A stretch of DNA of 64,000 nt. It comes from Thiomicrospira pelophila DSM 1534 (GTDB lineage Bacteria > Pseudomonadota > Gammaproteobacteria > Thiomicrospirales > Thiomicrospiraceae). Of the stretch, positions 776 to 8,470 are shown piece by piece (the stretch's first letter is position 1; every line of letters starts with the position of its first letter). The stretch is taken from positions 124,001 through 188,000 of the forward strand of contig NZ_JOMR01000001.1 of the NCBI RefSeq assembly GCF_000711195.1, in the 5' to 3' direction. Below the pieces are notes generated by a model, which saw only the letters and a list, made by a program, of their open reading frames with translations, ran no database searches and was not told the origin of the DNA. Both the position numbers and the translations under genes were made by a program.

Positions 776-2029
776 TTAATTTTTAACGTTCGGTTTCAAC
801 GCCAACCATACCCACAGCCCAGATAGAAACATCATTATGGCGACAAAATAAAACGGCCAAACCACAGACTCAGTATAAAAGGCCAACAAGCCCATTAAGA
901 AGGCACCGGCGGCATAACCAAAGTCACGCCAGAAACGATAAATGCCTAAAACACTGGCGCGCTGATTAGGCACACTCGTGTCGGCGACGGCCGCGCCCAA
1001 AGTTGGGTACAGCATCGCCATACCAAAGCCCATGATCGCGGCTAAAATTGACCAAGACCAAACCGTATCGACTAATACAAAAGTAAAACTGGTGATGGCA
1101 CATAACCAGAAGCCCCACACAATTAAGCCTCTGCGTCCCCAACGATCCGACAAGGGCCCAGTGATAAGTTGTGACCCGCCCCAAACTACACCATAAATGG
1201 CAATGATCGCGCTGGCTTGCACCAAACTTTGGGCTTGGCTGATAAGATATACTGGCATAAAAATCCACACTAGTGCATCAATAAATTTTTCGACCAGACC
1301 GGCTTGATTTAATGCAACCAACTGAGGTTGCTTAAAGGTGGCATAACCAAACATTTGCCCAAGACTTGGTTTCGCACCATCCTCGCCATTCGCCTGGCGA
1401 TGATGATGTTGATGCAGGTCTGACCAGGCACGCGTATCAACCACCTTCCAAATCGCGAGCACTAAGCCCAGACCAATGACCACTAAGCCAAAACCTAAGA
1501 TGGCTTCGCGTGCGCCATAAAGTTCCGCCAAATATGCAGTTAACCAGCCGGCAACGCCCACCGCGGCATAACCTGAAAACTCATTAAAGCCGTTAATTAA
1601 GCCTTTCTGATTGGCTTTGGCTAGGTCTAATTTACTGTTCAAAGCCATCGACCAACATAAACCTTGGTTTAAACCTAAAAACACCATTGCCCACACAATC
1701 CAGTACCAATCTTGCGCAAAGTAAATTAAAAATGGCACGGGTATCGCGAGCAACCAACCCGCTACTAATAAAGAACGCCGCCCCCAGCGATCACTTAAAT
1801 GACCCGCCAATAAATTCATAGTGGCTTTCACCAAACCAAATACCACCACAAACATTACCAAGCTCATAAAAGCTTGGGCCGCTAAACCAAACTCGGTTTC
1901 CGCCAGGCCTGGTACCACGGTGCGAGTCATTCCCAAAGCCAAGCCAACTAAAAACACCTGGATCAGCTGCTGTATAATTTGGTTTAAATTGGCTTTGATA
2001 CCGTGTTCGACTGACTGATTGTTCTGCAC
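776..2029 (-). CDS. MFS transporter
   Basis: This is a 417-residue major facilitator superfamily carrier with about twelve hydrophobic segments. The conserved cytoplasmic loop motif occurs in both halves, as GHLSDRWGRR (residues 76-85) and GPLSDRWGRR in the second half, which is diagnostic of the family. The central loop carries a histidine cluster, HQHHH (206-210), which could bind metal or simply be a linker. The substrate cannot be read from sequence. It is transcribed divergently from the metallo-hydrolase/YeeE/ArsR-rhodanese operon, with three ATTCAAC-type inverted repeats between them. The nearest repeat starts 20 bases upstream of its start codon, so it is probably controlled by the same repressor. 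Export or import of a sulfur compound is plausible but unproven. Confidence 0.85.
   Translation of the reverse strand: MQNNQSVEHGIKANLNQIIQQLIQVFLVGLALGMTRTVVPGLAETEFGLAAQAFMSLVMFVVVFGLVKATMNLLAGHLSDRWGRRSLLVAGWLLAIPVPFLIYFAQDWYWIVWAMVFLGLNQGLCWSMALNSKLDLAKANQKGLINGFNEFSGYAAVGVAGWLTAYLAELYGAREAILGFGLVVIGLGLVLAIWKVVDTRAWSDLHQHHHRQANGEDGAKPSLGQMFGYATFKQPQLVALNQAGLVEKFIDALVWIFMPVYLISQAQSLVQASAIIAIYGVVWGGSQLITGPLSDRWGRRGLIVWGFWLCAITSFTFVLVDTVWSWSILAAIMGFGMAMLYPTLGAAVADTSVPNQRASVLGIYRFWRDFGYAAGAFLMGLLAFYTESVVWPFYFVAIMMFLSGLWVWLALKPNVKN
1902..1913. repeat. Iterated palindrome, core CCAGGCCTGG
   Basis: The 10-base core is intact and the first outer base is G instead of A. It lies inside the MFS gene and encodes Pro-Gly-Leu (residues 40-42). 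Confidence 0.85.
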
Positions 2030-2048: not shown

Positions 2049-2068
2049 ATTCAACTATCTGGTTGAAT
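2049..2068. promoter_or_regulatory. Operator 1 of the sulfur-stress divergent promoter
   Basis: This is a perfect inverted repeat, ATTCAAC-N6-GTTGAAT, lying 20 bases upstream of the MFS start. The arm sequence and 6-base spacer recur at 2149 and 2195. The shape fits the dimeric ArsR-family repressor encoded at 4280-4927; the assignment is inferred. Confidence 0.65.
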
Positions 2069-2148
2069 ATTAGTGGGTTCATTTCAAATTTGCAATCTAA
2101 TTGGTCAAAATCTCACCTCGTAACTTTTTTGGCTAGCCTAAATAAATT

Positions 2149-2168
2149 AATCAACCGGCAGGTTGAAT
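2149..2168. promoter_or_regulatory. Operator 2 of the sulfur-stress divergent promoter
   Basis: The arms are AATCAAC and GTTGAAT with a 6-base spacer. The inner TCAACC/GGTTGA is perfect and one outer base deviates from the other two sites. It lies exactly 100 bases from operator 1 and 46 bases from operator 3. Confidence 0.6.
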
Positions 2169-2190
2169 CAGAAGCCTGAACCCGATATAG

Positions 2191-2218
2191 TTCCATTCAA
2201 CTAAATGGTTGAATGGAA
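2191..2218. promoter_or_regulatory. Operator 3 of the sulfur-stress divergent promoter
   Basis: This is the strongest of the three repeats. ATTCAAC (2195-2201) and GTTGAAT (2208-2214) are flanked by TTCC and GGAA, giving 11-base perfect arms around a 6-base spacer. It lies 75 bases upstream of the metallo-hydrolase start, where a bound repressor would be expected to block the promoter. Confidence 0.65.
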
Positions 2219-2235
2219 CTAATGACAATAAACAA

Positions 2236-2247
2236 ACCAGGCCTGGT
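2236..2247. repeat. Iterated palindrome ACCAGGCCTGGT (intergenic)
   Basis: An exact 12-mer in the 5' leader of the metallo-hydrolase operon, between operator 3 and the ribosome binding site. Confidence 0.9.
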
Positions 2248-2292
2248 TGTTCGTACCTAGGCCTCAAAATCAGGTTTAAAAGGAGATATGCA

Positions 2293-3027
2293 ATGTTTTT
2301 ATTTCAACACACACCGGATTCTGAACCGGGTTCTTTATCTTATATGCTAGGTTGTGTCGGTCAGGGGTTAGCGATTGCGGTAGATGTGCATCAGGATGAA
2401 GTTGAATTGTATTTAGAAAAGGCGGCGCAAAAAGGCGTCAAAATCGCTTATGTGGTGGATACACATGTACACGCCGATCACTACACGGGCGGTGCAGAAT
2501 TGGCGAAACGTGCCGGTGGTGAATATTGTTTACATCAAGATTCACCCGCTCAGTGCGACTTTACCCCGCTGGCTGAAAATCAAGTGATTGAAGCCGGTAA
2601 TGTGCATGCTCAAGTTTTGTATACGCCAGGGCATACTGAAGATAGCATCAGCTTATTGGTAACCGATAAATCGCGCTGTGATGAAGCTTGGTTTGTCATC
2701 ACCGGCCACACATTATTTGTAGGTAGCGTAGGTCGTCCAGATTTACGTGGTCGTGAAGTCGAAATGGCGAATAAATTGTATGACTCAATTCAGTACAAGC
2801 TATTAAATTTACCAGACTATATGGAAATCCTTCCCGGTGCGCAAGCGGGGAGCGTTTGTGGCGCAGGCATTAGCGGTAAAGCCGTCTCTACGATTGGATT
2901 TGAGAAGCGTTACAATCCAAGCTTACACCTTGATAAAGCTCAATTTGTTGAACAACTCACTAGCACTATCCTGCCTTATCCAGAAGATATGCAAAAAATT
3001 ATCGGTTTTAATGTTAAACCTTTATAA
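2293..3027 (+). CDS. MBL-fold persulfide dioxygenase-like metallo-hydrolase
   Basis: The start is placed at ATG 2293, just after AGGAG at 2281-2285; an upstream in-frame ATG at 2209 would put the third operator inside the gene. The 244-residue product has the metallo-beta-lactamase signature THVHADH (H58, H60, D62, H63) and TPGHT (H114). It ends with the AGSVCGAG and STIGFEKR segments typical of ETHE1/Blh relatives found beside rhodaneses and ArsR regulators. In ETHE1 persulfide dioxygenases the third metal ligand is the Asp of TGD; here the matching segment reads TGHTLFVG, with His139. The likely role is oxidation of glutathione persulfide to sulfite in the cytoplasm. Family membership is firm, but the exact reaction is inferred. 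Confidence 0.85.
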   Translation: MFLFQHTPDSEPGSLSYMLGCVGQGLAIAVDVHQDEVELYLEKAAQKGVKIAYVVDTHVHADHYTGGAELAKRAGGEYCLHQDSPAQCDFTPLAENQVIEAGNVHAQVLYTPGHTEDSISLLVTDKSRCDEAWFVITGHTLFVGSVGRPDLRGREVEMANKLYDSIQYKLLNLPDYMEILPGAQAGSVCGAGISGKAVSTIGFEKRYNPSLHLDKAQFVEQLTSTILPYPEDMQKIIGFNVKPL

Positions 3028-3106
3028 TCACCGGCATCATAATCGGTAGATCGCTCAATCTAGCGACTTATAACAAAAATAAAACCAAAGCCGGGAGCAA
3101 CGGAAC

Positions 3107-4228
3107 ATGAACGAGATTCCAAATCTTTTTATTAATTATTATGTGCTGGCCTTTGCGCTGGCCTTTATTTTAGGCCTAGTTGGACAACGCAGTTCATTTT
3201 GTGCGGTCGGGGGTTTAAGAGACCGCATTACCCTAGGTAATGGTACACGTCTTTGGACATTTATAGCGGCGATGGGGGTCGGCATTATTGCTTCCGGTAG
3301 CCTGGAATGGCTAAATGTGATGAACCTTTCAGACAGTCGACCACCTTATCGCACGGCGGATTTTGCTTGGGGACGTTATATTGTTGGCGGCTTTATTTTC
3401 GGTTTAGGCATGGTTTTGGCCACCGGCTGCGGTATGCGTAATACCGTTAAAATGGGACAGGGTAGTTACAAATCACTTTGGTTGGTCGCCGTCATGTCTG
3501 TTATGGCCTATATTATGACCCGTACCTCGTTTTATGGCGAATGGATAATGCCGATTTTTGCCCCCTTAACCGTTCACCTTGACTATGCCGGCTCGCAAGA
3601 CTTAGCCAGCTTAATCTTTGGTGCAGGTAGCCAACATATTGATCTAGCTTTACTGGTTTTAAGTTGGATGATCGGCTTAAGTTTGCTGTATTTTGCCTTT
3701 AGAAATCCCGAATTCCGCCGCCCAACGCCCATGATCAGCGCCCTAATTGTGGGCGCTATTATTGCGACGGCTTACGCTTTAACCGGCGGTCAGTTTGGCG
3801 CACAATTGATTGACGAAGCGGCCTTTATGGAAAGCCCACCCATCGGATTAGGCACGCAATCCTTTACCTTTGCGGCCCCGATGGGCGATACAGTTAACTA
3901 TTTAATGAGTCCTGCCAATGTCAGCTTGATTACATTCGGTTTGATCGCTGTGATTGGGGTGGCGCTGGGCTCTTTTGTTAGCAGCTTATTAAATCGCCAA
4001 TTTAAAGTCAGCGGTTTTGATTCGGCTAAAGATGGTGTGATTTCAAGCGTAGGCGCGTTATTCGTAGGTTTTGGTGCCGTACTGGCTATGGGATGTTCGG
4101 TTGGGCATGGCTTATCCGGTGTCGCAACCTTAGCTTTAGGCTCCTTTGTCGCGGTCGCCTCCATCACCGCTGGGGCTGTGGTAGGGATTAAATTTGAACC
4201 TATGTGGCGCAAAACTAAAGGTTGTTAA
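3107..4228 (+). CDS. YeeE/YedE family sulfur compound transporter
   Basis: This 373-residue integral membrane protein of the YeeE/YedE (DUF395, TsuA-like) family starts 14 bases after a GGGAG ribosome site begins. Conserved cysteines lie in SSFCAVGG (C32), ATGCGMRN (C108) and MGCSVGHG (C330). These match the membrane-embedded cysteines that relay thiosulfate in characterised TsuA proteins. Nine or so hydrophobic segments are visible. It follows the persulfide-dioxygenase-like gene and precedes the ArsR-rhodanese gene on the same strand, so the three form one operon. Uptake of thiosulfate or another sulfane-sulfur compound is the likely job; direction and substrate are inferred from the family. 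Confidence 0.85.
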   Translation: MNEIPNLFINYYVLAFALAFILGLVGQRSSFCAVGGLRDRITLGNGTRLWTFIAAMGVGIIASGSLEWLNVMNLSDSRPPYRTADFAWGRYIVGGFIFGLGMVLATGCGMRNTVKMGQGSYKSLWLVAVMSVMAYIMTRTSFYGEWIMPIFAPLTVHLDYAGSQDLASLIFGAGSQHIDLALLVLSWMIGLSLLYFAFRNPEFRRPTPMISALIVGAIIATAYALTGGQFGAQLIDEAAFMESPPIGLGTQSFTFAAPMGDTVNYLMSPANVSLITFGLIAVIGVALGSFVSSLLNRQFKVSGFDSAKDGVISSVGALFVGFGAVLAMGCSVGHGLSGVATLALGSFVAVASITAGAVVGIKFEPMWRKTKGC

Positions 4229-4279
4229 TCATCAATTTAAGGCTCCGTACCCTTATGACTGTTCAACAAAGTAATAAAT

Positions 4280-4927
4280 ATGACGATTAACTCTCTTAAG
4301 CTCGGTTTGTTTGAACAGCTGGCACAAGTCAGCAAGGCGTTGGGACATGCCAATCGTTTAATGATTTTAGATGTGCTGGCACAAACCCATTGCGATGTTG
4401 AAACCCTGCATAAAAAACTCGGCCTTAGCATTGCGAACGTATCCAAACACTTACAAACTCTAAAGCATGCAGGCCTGGTGACTAATGAGCGCCAAGGCCA
4501 ACACAGTGTTTATGCGTTAAGTGACGACAGCGTGTTTCGCCTAATTGTAAGTTTGCGTGACGTGGCTGAATCTCAACTAGATAGTATGCAAGCTTTATTA
4601 TTGGAGCATATACAACCCAATACCGACTATGAGCCTATTTCTCTGAAAGCCTTACGTGAGTTTAAACAGCCCTATACACTGCTGGATGTTCGCCCGGAAG
4701 ATGAATTTAAAGCTGGGCATATCCCGCACGCGATCAATATCCCGATTGAACAACTTCCACAAAAACTTAACGAACTGAAAACGGATCAAACCTTGGTTGT
4801 TTATTGTCGTGGGCCTTATTGCATGTGGTCACAAGAAGCCGTTAACGCTTTGCAAAAAAAAGGGATTAAAGCCCAGCGTTTGGCAGAAGGCTATCCTGAA
4901 TGGCAAGTAGAAAGTCACGCTTTTTAG
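4280..4927 (+). CDS. ArsR-family repressor fused to a rhodanese domain
   Basis: Residues 1-95 form a winged-helix ArsR/SmtB DNA-binding domain, with the recognition helix around LSIANVSKHLQTLKHAGLV. Residues ~115-215 form a rhodanese domain with active-site loop CRGPYC (C176, C181). The HTH half has a single cysteine (C38), near the position of one of the two redox cysteines of SqrR/BigR. The second sensor cysteine is not apparent there, so persulfide sensing might use the rhodanese C176. It closes the operon that starts at 2293 and is the obvious candidate to bind the three ATTCAAC-N6-GTTGAAT repeats upstream, which would make the system autoregulated. The domain call is strong; the sensing mechanism is inference. 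Confidence 0.88.
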   Translation: MTINSLKLGLFEQLAQVSKALGHANRLMILDVLAQTHCDVETLHKKLGLSIANVSKHLQTLKHAGLVTNERQGQHSVYALSDDSVFRLIVSLRDVAESQLDSMQALLLEHIQPNTDYEPISLKALREFKQPYTLLDVRPEDEFKAGHIPHAINIPIEQLPQKLNELKTDQTLVVYCRGPYCMWSQEAVNALQKKGIKAQRLAEGYPEWQVESHAF

Positions 4928-5099: not shown

Positions 5100-5789
5100 T
5101 TAAACACCAGGCCTGGTAGTTTTATGATGCTGGCGAGCTGCTCGATATAGCTGCATAAATTCGGCTTCACTCATTTCAAAATAACCCTGCATTTGTTCAC
5201 TGGCATAAGCCAAATCTTCGTGTGTAATTTCGGGTGTTTTTTCGGGTTCCGACTGGGTTTTCTTAAACACTACATAAGGGTAATGACGCCATTTAAACGG
5301 CGCGTTTAATATAACGGCCATCGCCACCAAGGTGAGCAAGCTTGGTAATAAACTAAGCCATAATAAACTCCAGCCCAGCGTTTCGACTTCAACCGTACCT
5401 AGCGCAATAAATAAAGCCGTTGCGCCACCCGGTGCGTGTCGCGCTTTAAATATCAACATAAATAACAGGGTACTGGCCACCGCAATTGGCACCGCGACCA
5501 TCGGATTAGAAAATAAACTCCAGCTGGCTAAACCGCACACGCCCGCTAGCATTTGACCCACAATGACGGCCCAAGGCTGCGCCATCGGAGCGTGAGGGGT
5601 AGAGAATAAAATGATCGCACTCGCCCCCATAGAGGCGATCACAAACCAGGCATAAATTCCATTGCTAAGCCAATCCATCATGAGCACTACCGCAATCATG
5701 GCGATAAATACGCCGCTCACCGACAAAATCATTTCGGATAAGTGACCAGATTCAAATGAAAAGGCCGATTTGAGTAATCGTTTCATCAT
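5100..5789 (-). CDS. HPP family membrane protein
   Basis: The 229-residue product starts with two adjacent ATG codons behind GAGGAAAT. It has at least four hydrophobic segments and the HPP-family blocks STPHAPMAQPWAVIVGQ and ARHAPGGATAL, in which the name-giving His-Pro-Pro reads His-Ala-Pro. About 60 hydrophilic residues follow the last membrane segment as a cytoplasmic tail. Some HPP proteins are implicated in nitrite transport into plastids and cyanobacteria, but bacterial members are mostly uncharacterised. No partner operon gene is evident; it is transcribed towards the ArsR-rhodanese gene across a 172-base gap in which I saw no gene. The last residues, TRPGV, are encoded by a copy of the iterated palindrome. 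Confidence 0.75.
   Translation of the reverse strand: MMKRLLKSAFSFESGHLSEMILSVSGVFIAMIAVVLMMDWLSNGIYAWFVIASMGASAIILFSTPHAPMAQPWAVIVGQMLAGVCGLASWSLFSNPMVAVPIAVASTLLFMLIFKARHAPGGATALFIALGTVEVETLGWSLLWLSLLPSLLTLVAMAVILNAPFKWRHYPYVVFKKTQSEPEKTPEITHEDLAYASEQMQGYFEMSEAEFMQLYRAARQHHKTTRPGV
5106..5117. repeat. Iterated palindrome ACCAGGCCTGGT
   Basis: An exact 12-mer in the HPP gene, encoding Thr-Arg-Pro-Gly two codons before the stop. It is the only copy read in this frame. Confidence 0.9.
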
Positions 5790-5961
5790 TTATTTCCTCG
5801 TTTTTTTATGAGCTCTCTTCGAAGCTTACTAGTTGATTTTTATATTTTTTTCTATCATTCATACTATCTTGCTCTTTGACAAGGTGCGTATTTTTTGCTA
5901 GGTTTATTAATGACCTAAAGTGCAAGACCATTTAATAAATTTGGGTCAAAAGGGGGTTACT

Positions 5962-6618
5962 ATGTTTTACAAATCCAGTCTTTTAGGTGCTTGCTTTGTA
6001 GCACTGACTTTTAGCCAAATGGCCTTAGCCAAAGATTTGAAGGTAAAAATCAGTCCAGAAATTAGTGAAATTAGCGTCCAACATAACGGTAAACCCGTGA
6101 CGATCAAACGCATCCAAGACCAAAAAAACACGGTGGTTGAGGATTACGCTTTAACGTCTCGTGCTTGCCCACCATTTTGTGTGCAGCCGATCGAGGTCGC
6201 CCCGGGCGTGACCACAATTGGTGAACTTGAGCTGCTTGACTTTTTACAGCGAAAATCAGACGGTGACGAATCCATATTGATCATCGACTCTCGTACCCCT
6301 GATTGGGTTGAAAAGGGCACTATTCCGAGTGCGACCAATTTACCTTGGACCAAACTCCACCCTCAATCTGACGGATATGAACCGATCGAAGTTGAAGGCA
6401 TTCTCACGTTACAATTCAACGCCACGGTAAGTGATGGCATTTGGAACTTTTCCAACGCCAAAACTCTGGTTTTTTTCTGTAATGGCCCTTGGTGTGGACA
6501 ATCTCCCACAAATATTAAAGCACTGGTTAACCTTGGTTATCCTGCCCATAAAATGTTTTGGTATCGCGGTGGCATGCAGTCCTGGCAGTCCTTAGGTTTA
6601 ACCACAGTAAAACCTTAA
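5962..6618 (+). CDS. Periplasmic rhodanese-like sulfurtransferase
   Basis: I chose ATG 5962 because it follows AGGGGG and opens a clean signal peptide of about 23 residues ending ALA-K; an upstream ATG at 5920 would spoil it. The 218-residue product carries a rhodanese domain in its C-terminal two thirds, with catalytic loop CNGPWC (C173, C178) and the conserved IDSRTPDWVEKGTIPSA entry segment. A second cysteine pair, CPPFC, precedes the domain and could form a disulfide. The secreted location suggests sulfane-sulfur transfer in the periplasm of a sulfur oxidiser, for which no partner is encoded directly beside it. It ends at a hairpin shared with the convergent nsrR gene. Confidence 0.8.
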   Translation: MFYKSSLLGACFVALTFSQMALAKDLKVKISPEISEISVQHNGKPVTIKRIQDQKNTVVEDYALTSRACPPFCVQPIEVAPGVTTIGELELLDFLQRKSDGDESILIIDSRTPDWVEKGTIPSATNLPWTKLHPQSDGYEPIEVEGILTLQFNATVSDGIWNFSNAKTLVFFCNGPWCGQSPTNIKALVNLGYPAHKMFWYRGGMQSWQSLGLTTVKP

Positions 6619-6632
6619 GTTCATCGCTTTAA

Positions 6633-6663
6633 GCATTAAGTTGGGGTTTAACCAACTTAATGC
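6633..6663. terminator. Bidirectional hairpin between rhodanese and nsrR genes
   Basis: GCATTAAGTTGG (6633-6644) pairs perfectly with CCAACTTAATGC (6652-6663) around a 7-base loop. The right arm contains the nsrR stop codon. It lies between convergent genes and lacks a long T tract. Confidence 0.6.
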
Positions 6664-7109
6664 ACCGCAACGCGTTGGGTTGAAATATCTGTAAGAAAAA
6701 TTTCGTGGCGCACTTGAGGCGTCACAATGTCACTCAAACTAAACTGGCTTAAATGCGCCAAATAACTTTCTTGTGCTTGATACAAAAAGTTTTTCAGCAC
6801 GCAGGTGTTTTCAATCAAACACACCGGCTCATGGCAATTCACTGGGCTGAGCGTCGCCTCCATTAACTCAACCACCTCTCTCAAGTTTATGTCTTCCGCT
6901 GACTTAGCCAGTTTTAAACCACCACCTTGACCTCGCACCGATTCAATTAAGCCGCTATTCGCCATTTTTTGCACAATCTTCATCACATGACTGCGCGAAA
7001 TGTCAAAACGCGTCGCAATGGTTTGAATTTGCGATAAATCTTGCGCCGGTTTAGAGGCTAAATAAATCAACACTCGAAACGCAAAATCGGTCTGTTTTGT
7101 GAGTTGCAT
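6657..7109 (-). CDS. nsrR: NsrR, nitric-oxide sensing Rrf2-family repressor
   Basis: The start is placed at 7109 (MQLTKQTDFAFRVL) behind AGGGGGACA, giving 150 residues, the usual NsrR length. An Rrf2 winged helix occupies residues 1-80. The iron-sulfur ligand cysteines C92, C97 and C103 occur in NCHEPVCLIENTC and match the 91/96/102 spacing of Escherichia coli NsrR. Nitrosylation of the cluster releases DNA in characterised homologues. The gene is divergent from the flavohaemoglobin gene, and a 23-base site with NsrR geometry lies between them. The pairing of regulator, site and hmp makes the call secure. Confidence 0.93.
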   Translation of the reverse strand: MQLTKQTDFAFRVLIYLASKPAQDLSQIQTIATRFDISRSHVMKIVQKMANSGLIESVRGQGGGLKLAKSAEDINLREVVELMEATLSPVNCHEPVCLIENTCVLKNFLYQAQESYLAHLSQFSLSDIVTPQVRHEIFLTDISTQRVAVH

Positions 7110-7184
7110 GGATTTTGTCCCCCTACCTTGATTGGTTATTATAGTTGACAAGCCACTAAACATTCAAATAATATGCACCTTTAA

Positions 7185-7207
7185 AAGATACATATTAAAT
7201 GAATCTT
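7185..7207. promoter_or_regulatory. NsrR operator upstream of hmp
   Basis: The site has two 11-base half-sites around one central base, AAGATACATAT-T-AAATGAATCTT. This is the canonical NsrR layout of AAGATGCATTT-N-AAATGCATCTT with three differences. It lies between nsrR and hmp, 82 bases upstream of the hmp start, so it could control both. Confidence 0.75.
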
Positions 7208-7288
7208 AATTATTTGAGTCGATCAACATGCCTTACTAACGGGCTTTATTACGACCCAAAACCCACAAAAATAACCAAAGAGTGCTAT

Positions 7289-8470
7289 ATGCTGACGCCA
7301 CAAATTATTCAAACTGTTAAATCCACTGCGCCGGTTTTGGCTGAACAAGGCGTGCAGATTACTAACCTGTTCTACAAAAAGTTGTTTACCCACCACCCAG
7401 AACTGAAGCATGTCTTTAATATGGCAAACCAAGCACAAGGTGAACAATCCAAAGCCTTAGCCGAATCCGTATTTATGTATGCCAACCGAATCGACGAACT
7501 AGAAGCACTTGGCCCAATGGTCAAACGCATTGCCCATAAACATGCGAGTTTACATATTCAGCCGGATCATTACCCCATTGTAGGCAAATACTTACTGGAA
7601 GCGGTTCAAGAACATTTGTCATTACCGGACGATCATGAGGTGTTAAAAGCCTGGGCCGTCGCCTATGCCTTTTTAGCGCAAGTATTTGTCGATACCGAAG
7701 AGCAGATTTATGCTGCCAATGAAGAAAAACCGGGCGGATGGCGCGGGTTTAAAGCCTTTAATATTTCACGCATCGTAAAAGAAGCCGATTCGGTCAAATC
7801 CTTTTATTTGATCCCCGAAGATGGACAGCTAGTGGATTTCGAACCCGGCCAATATTTGGGTATTAAATTGAAAGGTAAAGATGGCCAGTTTGATGAAATT
7901 CGCCAGTATTCGATCTCCAATGCGCCCGGTGAACCTTACTACCGTATCAGTGTCAAAACGGAAGCGCACTCGCCGGATCACCCAGGACAGGTTTCTAATC
8001 GCTTACACCAAGCACAGGTAGGCGATCAAATTTGGGTGCAACCACCAACCGGTGAGTTTTTTATAAAAAATCAAACCAATGCTAAAGTATTTATTGCAGG
8101 AGGCGTAGGAATTACACCGTTGGTGAGCATGTTGAATGACCAACTTAATAAAAACCCAGACCAAGATTTACGCTTCATTCAATGTGTTCGGGACGAATCG
8201 CACCATATAATGAAAAATGAAATCAGTTTGCTGAAACACAAATACGGGGTTGAATATTTCAGTGCTTATCAGTTTGGTGATGGCGCCGATCATCAGGGTT
8301 ATTTAAATACTGATATCTTGAGCCAATGGTTACCTAATACCCAAGCCGATGTATACTTTTGTGGACCCAAGCCATTCATGGCGGCGGTTTATCATGAGTG
8401 TATTGGGCTGGGTTTTAAATCGGAACAATTGCACTATGAAGTCTTTGGTCCAACCACGTCACTCACATAA
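7289..8470 (+). CDS. hmp: Flavohaemoglobin, nitric oxide dioxygenase
   Basis: Translation is placed at ATG 7289 (MLTPQIIQTVKS), giving 393 residues, the usual Hmp length; a start at 7199 would place the NsrR operator in the coding region. Residues 1-140 form the globin domain with proximal haem ligand H85 in IAHKHASLHI. Residues ~150-255 are the FAD-binding domain with RQYSIS, and the C-terminal third is the NAD domain with AGGVGITP and the YFCGPKPFM block. The enzyme converts NO and O2 to nitrate in the cytoplasm. It sits beside nsrR and nnrS in a dedicated NO-response cassette and is followed by a strong terminator. Confidence 0.95.
   Translation: MLTPQIIQTVKSTAPVLAEQGVQITNLFYKKLFTHHPELKHVFNMANQAQGEQSKALAESVFMYANRIDELEALGPMVKRIAHKHASLHIQPDHYPIVGKYLLEAVQEHLSLPDDHEVLKAWAVAYAFLAQVFVDTEEQIYAANEEKPGGWRGFKAFNISRIVKEADSVKSFYLIPEDGQLVDFEPGQYLGIKLKGKDGQFDEIRQYSISNAPGEPYYRISVKTEAHSPDHPGQVSNRLHQAQVGDQIWVQPPTGEFFIKNQTNAKVFIAGGVGITPLVSMLNDQLNKNPDQDLRFIQCVRDESHHIMKNEISLLKHKYGVEYFSAYQFGDGADHQGYLNTDILSQWLPNTQADVYFCGPKPFMAAVYHECIGLGFKSEQLHYEVFGPTTSLT

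Follow-up and report, generated by a model that had tools for sequence, protein, structure and literature searches.

The ArsR fold is common to BigR, SqrR, YgaV and PigS. BigR and SqrR are single-domain proteins that carry their pair of sensor cysteines in helices α-2 and α-5 of the helix-turn-helix (HTH) domain, C41/C107 in SqrR and C42/C108 in BigR according to the available part of PMC9774590, and the targets of the BigR and PigS systems include a sulfur dioxygenase and sulfur-compound transporters, as far as the accessible portions of PMC5823870, PMC10812762 and PMC9774590 report. We describe here a protein of the sulfur-oxidising bacterium Thiomicrospira pelophila DSM 1534 that has the same fold and stands in an operon of matching gene content, a persulfide dioxygenase (PDO)-like gene and a YeeE gene, but which is fused to a rhodanese domain and has its cysteines there. 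It is encoded by the last of the three genes (4280-4927, forward strand, 215 residues, Pfam HTH_5 and Rhodanese) in the window, by which we mean the whole 64-kb stretch that was analysed out of a genome of 2,108,215 bases in one contig. The ArsR-rhodanese fusion is very probably the repressor that binds a set of palindromic operators beside its own operon, and we put at roughly two in three the probability that it is an autoregulating repressor which is released from DNA when C176 becomes persulfidated and C181 resolves the persulfide. In this it would work like BigR and SqrR, yet it is outside that dithiol group.

The operators are found between the MFS transporter gene and the PDO-like/YeeE/ArsR-rhodanese operon, and this gene order, already named in the original prediction, is borne out by the open reading frames (ORFs) and the Pfam matches. 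The prediction had listed three repeats of ATTCAAC-N6-GTTGAAT; their spacing, 100 from start to start for sites 1 and 2 and 46 for sites 2 and 3, and their position are as described, whereas the exact form is present only in site 1 (2049-2068) and site 3 (2195-2214), site 2 (2149-2168, AATCAAC-CGGCAG-GTTGAAT) having one mismatch. These sites, palindromic and assigned to neither strand, are the three matches in the window with at most one mismatch; 100 dinucleotide shuffles gave 0.03 such matches on average, and never as many as three. The observation of operators beside the ArsR-rhodanese operon is thus confirmed. Site 3 lies within a perfect palindrome with 14-nt arms (2188-2221), the outer part of which takes in the end of a -10-like box, and the three-site array, with spacings of 99-101 and 46-50, recurs in 6 of 41 loci when the present locus is counted (two of the six are in one genome).

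The operators also accompany the regulator gene through its relatives. Counting ATTCAA-N8-TTGAAT with at most one of the 12 fixed bases wrong and within 120 bp upstream of the regulator gene, in sets made non-redundant at 80% identity, we found an operator in 16 of 23 class and phylum loci and in 35 of 53 loci from named genomes. For the first set, other windows of the same loci gave 0 of 387 and shuffles 0 of 460; for the second, windows gave 0.08% of 2646 and shuffles 0 of 1060. A later set, searched to 220 bp upstream, has one in 31 of 52 loci (19 of them exact), and more than half of the non-redundant fusions have this pattern just upstream. In the 62 genomes of the host's family, exact sites number 89 in the 44 genomes that have the regulator and 10 in the 18 that lack it, while a reversed-pattern control gives 13 and 9.

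What ties the protein itself to the sites is the covariation of residue 56 with base 7 of the operator, a base that had no part in finding the sites. A site is present for 77 of 102 non-redundant proteins; K56 goes with C at base 7 in 36 of 38 half-sites, R56 with T in 27 of 32, H56 with A or G in all 10 and Q56 with T or G in 65 of 72. The mutual information (MI) of the two positions is 0.764, against a permutation maximum of 0.220 (0 of 5000 permutations reached it), and it ranks first among HTH columns 5-99; outside Thiomicrospirales, where 52 of 76 proteins have a site, MI is 0.518 against a maximum of 0.264 and again ranks first, although these statistics leave relatedness in. Residue 56, a lysine in the present protein, sits in helix 51-63 of the structural model, which from general knowledge of the ArsR family we take to be the recognition helix. 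It is from this covariation that we regard the fusion as very probably the protein that binds these sites, and the pairing of repressor and operators in the original prediction gains support from it as well as from the family-wide upstream operators. Both DNA binding and autoregulation, as predicted from the sequences, are strongly supported.

The palindromes could in principle belong to another regulator, either the Rrf2 protein encoded at 6657-7163 or the genome's separate ArsR protein of BigR/SqrR type (L043:2119-2430, reverse strand), which does have both of the cysteines typical of that group. We consider this scarcely credible. The sites track the fusion gene through Alpha-, Beta- and Gammaproteobacteria, Mycobacteroides and Ktedonobacterales, they covary with the fusion's own recognition helix, and their form is ATTC-N12-GAAT, whereas the SqrR box is given as ATTC-N8-GAAT in the available text of PMC9774250.

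If the fusion is the repressor, its sensing residues are most reasonably sought in the rhodanese domain. Cysteines are present only at positions 38, 176 and 181, with none between 39 and 175, which agrees with the earlier remark that C38 is the only one in the HTH domain. The BigR/SqrR α-2 cysteine position corresponds to D31 by the match coordinates of BigR and of the SqrR group, and all 182 proteins checked (102 + 80) have D, E or Q there; the α-5 position corresponds to E97, as read from a gapless alignment stretched by three residues. Among 231 homologues, the HTH part has no cysteine in 154, one in 64, two in 10 and three in 3. C176, on the other hand, is kept in 151 of 151 homologues and C181 in 150 of 151 (71 + 80, none fetched by the loop motif; loci L114-L193, which were fetched partly by the pattern YCRGPYC, are excluded from this count), with loop variants such as CRGPYC, CRGPHC and CRGAYC. 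C38 was rejected as the sensor: most homologues have another residue at this place (R, K, S, T, N, H, Y, A or Q), and it lies off the α-2 cysteine column. The interpretation that came with the original prediction is hence partly supported, being mostly right about the sensing domain, where the conservation of C176/C181 and the lack of BigR-type cysteines speak for the rhodanese pair, and wrong in the weight it placed on C38, which is unconserved and is not the counterpart of the α-2 cysteine.

The rhodanese loop, C176-R-G-P-Y-C181, also differs from that of ordinary sulfurtransferases. PMC8533005 compares 13 rhodanese structures, all of which, as far as the accessible part of that paper shows, have Arg, Thr or Ser as residue 6 of the loop, and RDL2 is reported there to need this residue to take sulfur from thiosulfate. 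In CRGPYC residue 6, by count and not by superposition, is Cys, which departs from the Arg/Thr/Ser criterion of rhodanese sulfurtransferases, and for this reason we read the loop as a site where C176 would accept sulfur and C181 would resolve it instead of turning it over. The same domain might of course be an enzyme that gives sulfur to PDO or to other acceptors, the fusion being a moonlighting repressor whose DNA binding is indifferent to the rhodanese cysteines. The PDO and rhodanese genes adjoin, the two activities are found in one protein elsewhere (PRF, 5ve3-5ve5, is among the PDB matches), and C176 is the expected catalytic cysteine. A DNA-binding domain would nevertheless be an odd partner for an enzyme without a sensing role, C181 stands in place of the loop-end residue of all those structures, and no other conserved cysteine could serve as a sensor, so we find a purely enzymatic rhodanese unlikely.

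Nor does it seem likely that the loop, with its C-X4-C pair, senses a soft metal, arsenite or an electrophile by binding it, in place of sulfane sulfur. ArsR proteins are often metal sensors, CzrA and other sensors of this kind are among the matches of the HTH half, and two nearby cysteines can bind metals or electrophiles; against this, we noticed no conserved metal ligands of the established ArsR types in the HTH half, where no site-by-site test was made, and the sites adjoin the genes for PDO, MFS and the regulator, the annotated clusters containing neither ars nor metal-efflux genes.

The operators of Thiomicrospirales appear to be part of sigma-70-like promoters. In the PDO operon the right arm of site 2 supplies a -35-like TTGAAT (2163-2168, forward strand), a -10-like TATAGT (2186-2191, forward strand) follows exactly 17 nt behind that arm, and site 3 covers the expected transcription start; a TATA(G/A/T)T-type hexamer is kept at the same 17-nt spacing in relatives. 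On the other side, site 1 lies 20 bp ahead of the start codon of the MFS gene (776-2029, reverse strand, an ORF with a GTG start that is divergent from the PDO operon; Pfam MFS_1 150.2 bits, cut-off 33.4) and overlaps its -10-like TAATAT (2067-2072, reverse strand), which is a consensus match only and is separated by a 17-nt spacer from a -35-like TTGCAA (2090-2095, reverse strand). Where Thiomicrospirales have pairs of sites 46-50 bp apart, TATA(G/T)T stands exactly 17 nt behind the first TTGAAT arm in 8 of 10 (two of these pairs are in one genome), and the remaining two have weaker hexamers at that place. Of 128 site orientations, 21 have a hexamer with at least five of the six TATAAT letters precisely 17 nt past an operator arm (random positions give 0.59%), and 49 have a -10-like box that abuts the operator, together with a -35-like box, against 7.75%, but the loci are related to each other and these counts are not independent.

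With sites over the -35 box and over the starts, steric repression of both divergent promoters by occlusion is implied, and YgaV has a comparable promoter overlap (the available part of PMC9774250). HlyU, a persulfide-responsive relative among the ArsR proteins, activates hlyA according to the accessible text of PMC10509353, and the fusion could by analogy be mainly an activator, or a two-way switch that still binds in its sulfur-modified form. We think this very unlikely, as its sites are over the -35 box and the start and not upstream of the promoter.

The repressor that we favour would work as follows. Its winged-helix domain, presumably a dimer as in other ArsR proteins, would bind ATTCAAC-N6-GTTGAAT with K56 reading base 7, and would then lie with site 2 over the -35 box and with site 3 over the start of the PDO-YeeE-regulator operon, and with site 1 over the -10 box and start of the MFS gene, which would shut both promoters. 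A rise in sulfane sulfur (persulfide, polysulfide, perhaps thiosulfate) would lead C176 to take up a sulfur atom that C181, in the same loop, could trap within the loop as a di- or polysulfide; this would be communicated to the DNA-binding domain, which would let go of the DNA. PDO might then oxidise the persulfide to sulfite, YeeE would move a sulfur compound, and the regulator would be reset.

Several results weigh against this account. A phylogeny-aware pair test of the covariation found one pair on well-supported branches and five in all, too few for significance. In the later set, mostly of Q56 proteins, MI was 0.196, a value reached by 53 of 5000 permutations, and other columns score higher, while the single K, H and R proteins of that set obey, or nearly obey, the rule. 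Within 120 bp of the regulator gene an operator is found in just 8 of 26 Thiomicrospirales loci; this number is low because their sites are mostly at the operon promoter farther upstream, and if the whole locus is searched and chance matches are counted, 25 of the 26 have a site that is as good. Three loci (L064, L084 and L085) lack any near-consensus site in the surroundings of the gene. A sigma-70 promoter scan confined to the window did no better than chance (one found, 0.9 expected), and the case for promoter overlap for that reason rests on the relatives. One homologue has Ser for C181 (loop CRGALS), and the loop probably exceeds the canonical length by one or two residues, as judged from a gap in the alignment with 3tp9 and from the model, in which it spans 176-182.

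A whole-genome pattern scan, which the original prediction had proposed as a way to define the regulon, gave a fourth site, TTTCAACTATCTGGTTGAAT, outside the window (G000:C1:123131-123150, equal to L039:3132-3151), while the regulon otherwise looks small and local. A MoxR-type ATPase gene, followed by a DUF58 gene, has its probable ATG 33 bases downstream of this site. With its surroundings the fourth site has 28 identical bases in common with the site 1 region, and the module TTGCAA-N17-TAATAT precedes both. At up to two mismatches the genome has 20 places, against 17 for the reversed-pattern control. Only four sites stand out, all of them inside 3.1 kb; three of the other places were retrieved, and the one whose ORFs were inspected, with a single mismatch at 352293, falls within overlapping ORFs. 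A larger regulon was not found in this genome. In 26 non-redundant Thiomicrospirales loci, a site is no more than 260 bp from the 5' end of MFS (17), regulator (11), PDO (10), MoxR (6), alpha/beta hydrolase (3) and other (3) genes, and MoxR-cluster genes are present in 17 of the loci. A gene of the fatty-acid-hydroxylase family was seen in 13 of the 53 non-redundant named loci (L120, L138, L141, L171, L192 and L193 are among them), and in 7 its 5' end is no more than 260 bp from a site.

The wider view would then be that in this family the active site of a rhodanese enzyme has become a switch, with a second cysteine, in place of the usual Arg, Thr or Ser at the loop end, trapping the persulfide of C176, which would be read out as loss of DNA binding; that one operator code, ATTCAA[7]-N6-[7']TTGAAT, with base 7 set by residue 56, extends from Proteobacteria to Mycobacteroides and Ktedonobacterales; and that in Thiomicrospirales the MoxR-DUF58 operon, tied into the regulon by the fourth site, is controlled by the ArsR-rhodanese protein too. 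For these three taken together we would give slightly better than even odds.

In its layout the protein has a winged HTH domain at about 5-110, a linker and a rhodanese domain at about 120-213 (predicted structure with pLDDT 90.7 and pTM 0.85). The HTH half is above the curated ArsR cut-offs (PF01022 30.4 bits, cut-off 22; NF033788 78.7, cut-off 55), and the rhodanese half is above that of PF00581 (66.6 bits, cut-off 22.2), with the loop cysteine C176 and with fold matches at Z of about 14-15. The NCBIfam BigR equivalog NF040642 gives 46.1 bits, below its cut-off of 155. TsoR (NF045707) is likewise an ArsR regulator, and the library pairs its family name with a rhodanese/DsbD protein, TsoB; its score of 59.2 bits is below the cut-off of 115 and covers residues 12-102 only.

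No full-length ArsR-rhodanese structure is among the 50 fold matches listed (VIA-align 2). The best PDB sequence match of the HTH half is Mb0332 of Mycobacterium bovis (2kko, 3gw2; E 1.1e-13), with a fold match to 3gw2 of Z 13.3 and a root-mean-square deviation (rmsd) of 1.2 over 93 residues. The solved piece of Mb0332 is a fragment, residues 1-100 of a longer protein, and a Mycobacteroides locus (L180) has the full fusion with a perfect operator. We take Mb0332 to be the ortholog of Rv0324, for which we found no literature that joins it to rhodanese or sulfur sensing. For the rhodanese half the top fold match is the BH2092 type (3o3w, 3nhv; Z 15.7, rmsd 5.3 over 112 residues), which has a CxGPxC loop as well (CWGPAC, aligned without a gap), but whose solved chain has no DNA-binding domain. 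In the PDO-rhodanese fusions BpPRF and 3tp9 the rhodanese is carried on the dioxygenase, whereas here it is on the repressor; the PDO part of these proteins, and human ETHE1, are matched by the metallo-beta-lactamase protein of the operon. That PDO-like protein (2293-3027, forward strand, 244 residues from the ATG at 2293; Pfam Lactamase_B) has the metallo-beta-lactamase fold and the motif THVHADH, and its PDB matches are 3tp9 (E 2.1e-32), 3r2u, 4ysb and ETHE1 4chl (E 9.8e-14). The YeeE/YedE-family sulfur transporter gene (3107-4228, forward strand) has 180.9 bits to Pfam Sulf_transp against a cut-off of 27, and its protein scored under the TsuA equivalog cut-offs.

Downstream, at 5100-8470 of the window, are genes for an HPP membrane protein (reverse strand), a rhodanese, the Rrf2 regulator (reverse strand) and a globin-FAD/NAD, flavohemoprotein-like product. 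The rhodanese-domain protein (5962-6618, forward strand) has an apparent signal peptide and the loop CNGPWC, which is of the CxGPxC form also seen in the ArsR-rhodanese regulator.

Full-length fusions were found at E ≤ 1e-10 in 44 of the 62 genomes of the host's family, and a scan of named genomes gave at least 583 relatives. The 80 of these that were kept span Alpha-, Beta- and Gammaproteobacteria, Magnetococcales, a Mycobacteroides and a metagenome-assembled genome (MAG) of Ktedonobacterales, and include two Anaerolineae loci and MAGs labelled Acidobacteria and Deltaproteobacteria. Neighbours of the fusion gene in related loci are PDO, YeeE, DsrE, TauE and VTT-rhodanese genes. Loci L087-L113 and L194-L197 are the top-scoring matches of their searches and not random picks. 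The locus L085 (G059:C1, about 884500), from a relative of the genus, has a regulator without most of the HTH domain that keeps the rhodanese loop cysteines, and its 13-kb locus has no operator left at up to two mismatches. This shortened regulator was left out of the alignments, and L060 was left out of alignment A1; in the remaining alignments the C-terminal tail of L060 is read beyond the stop, which leaves the counted columns unaffected.

In the literature searched, to which subscription papers and preprints do not belong and where a published account may thus have escaped us, no account of the function of an ArsR-rhodanese fusion was found. The ArsR sensor similarity network of PMC10509353 dropped sequences longer than 150 residues, according to the part of the paper that is available, and the family is missing from it because of its length. 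The ArsR-rhodanese proteins are apparently a widespread and undescribed type of sulfur sensor, common at E ≤ 1e-20 in the genomes sampled from the class (98 of 369) and from the phylum (47 of 398). The operator code makes it possible to list candidate targets in any genome with the gene, and the question of sensing could be put to the test with a single protein, a single DNA fragment and two point mutants. The known persulfide sensors of the ArsR type have two cysteines in the DNA-binding domain, and in this family sensing appears to have been shifted to the fused rhodanese.

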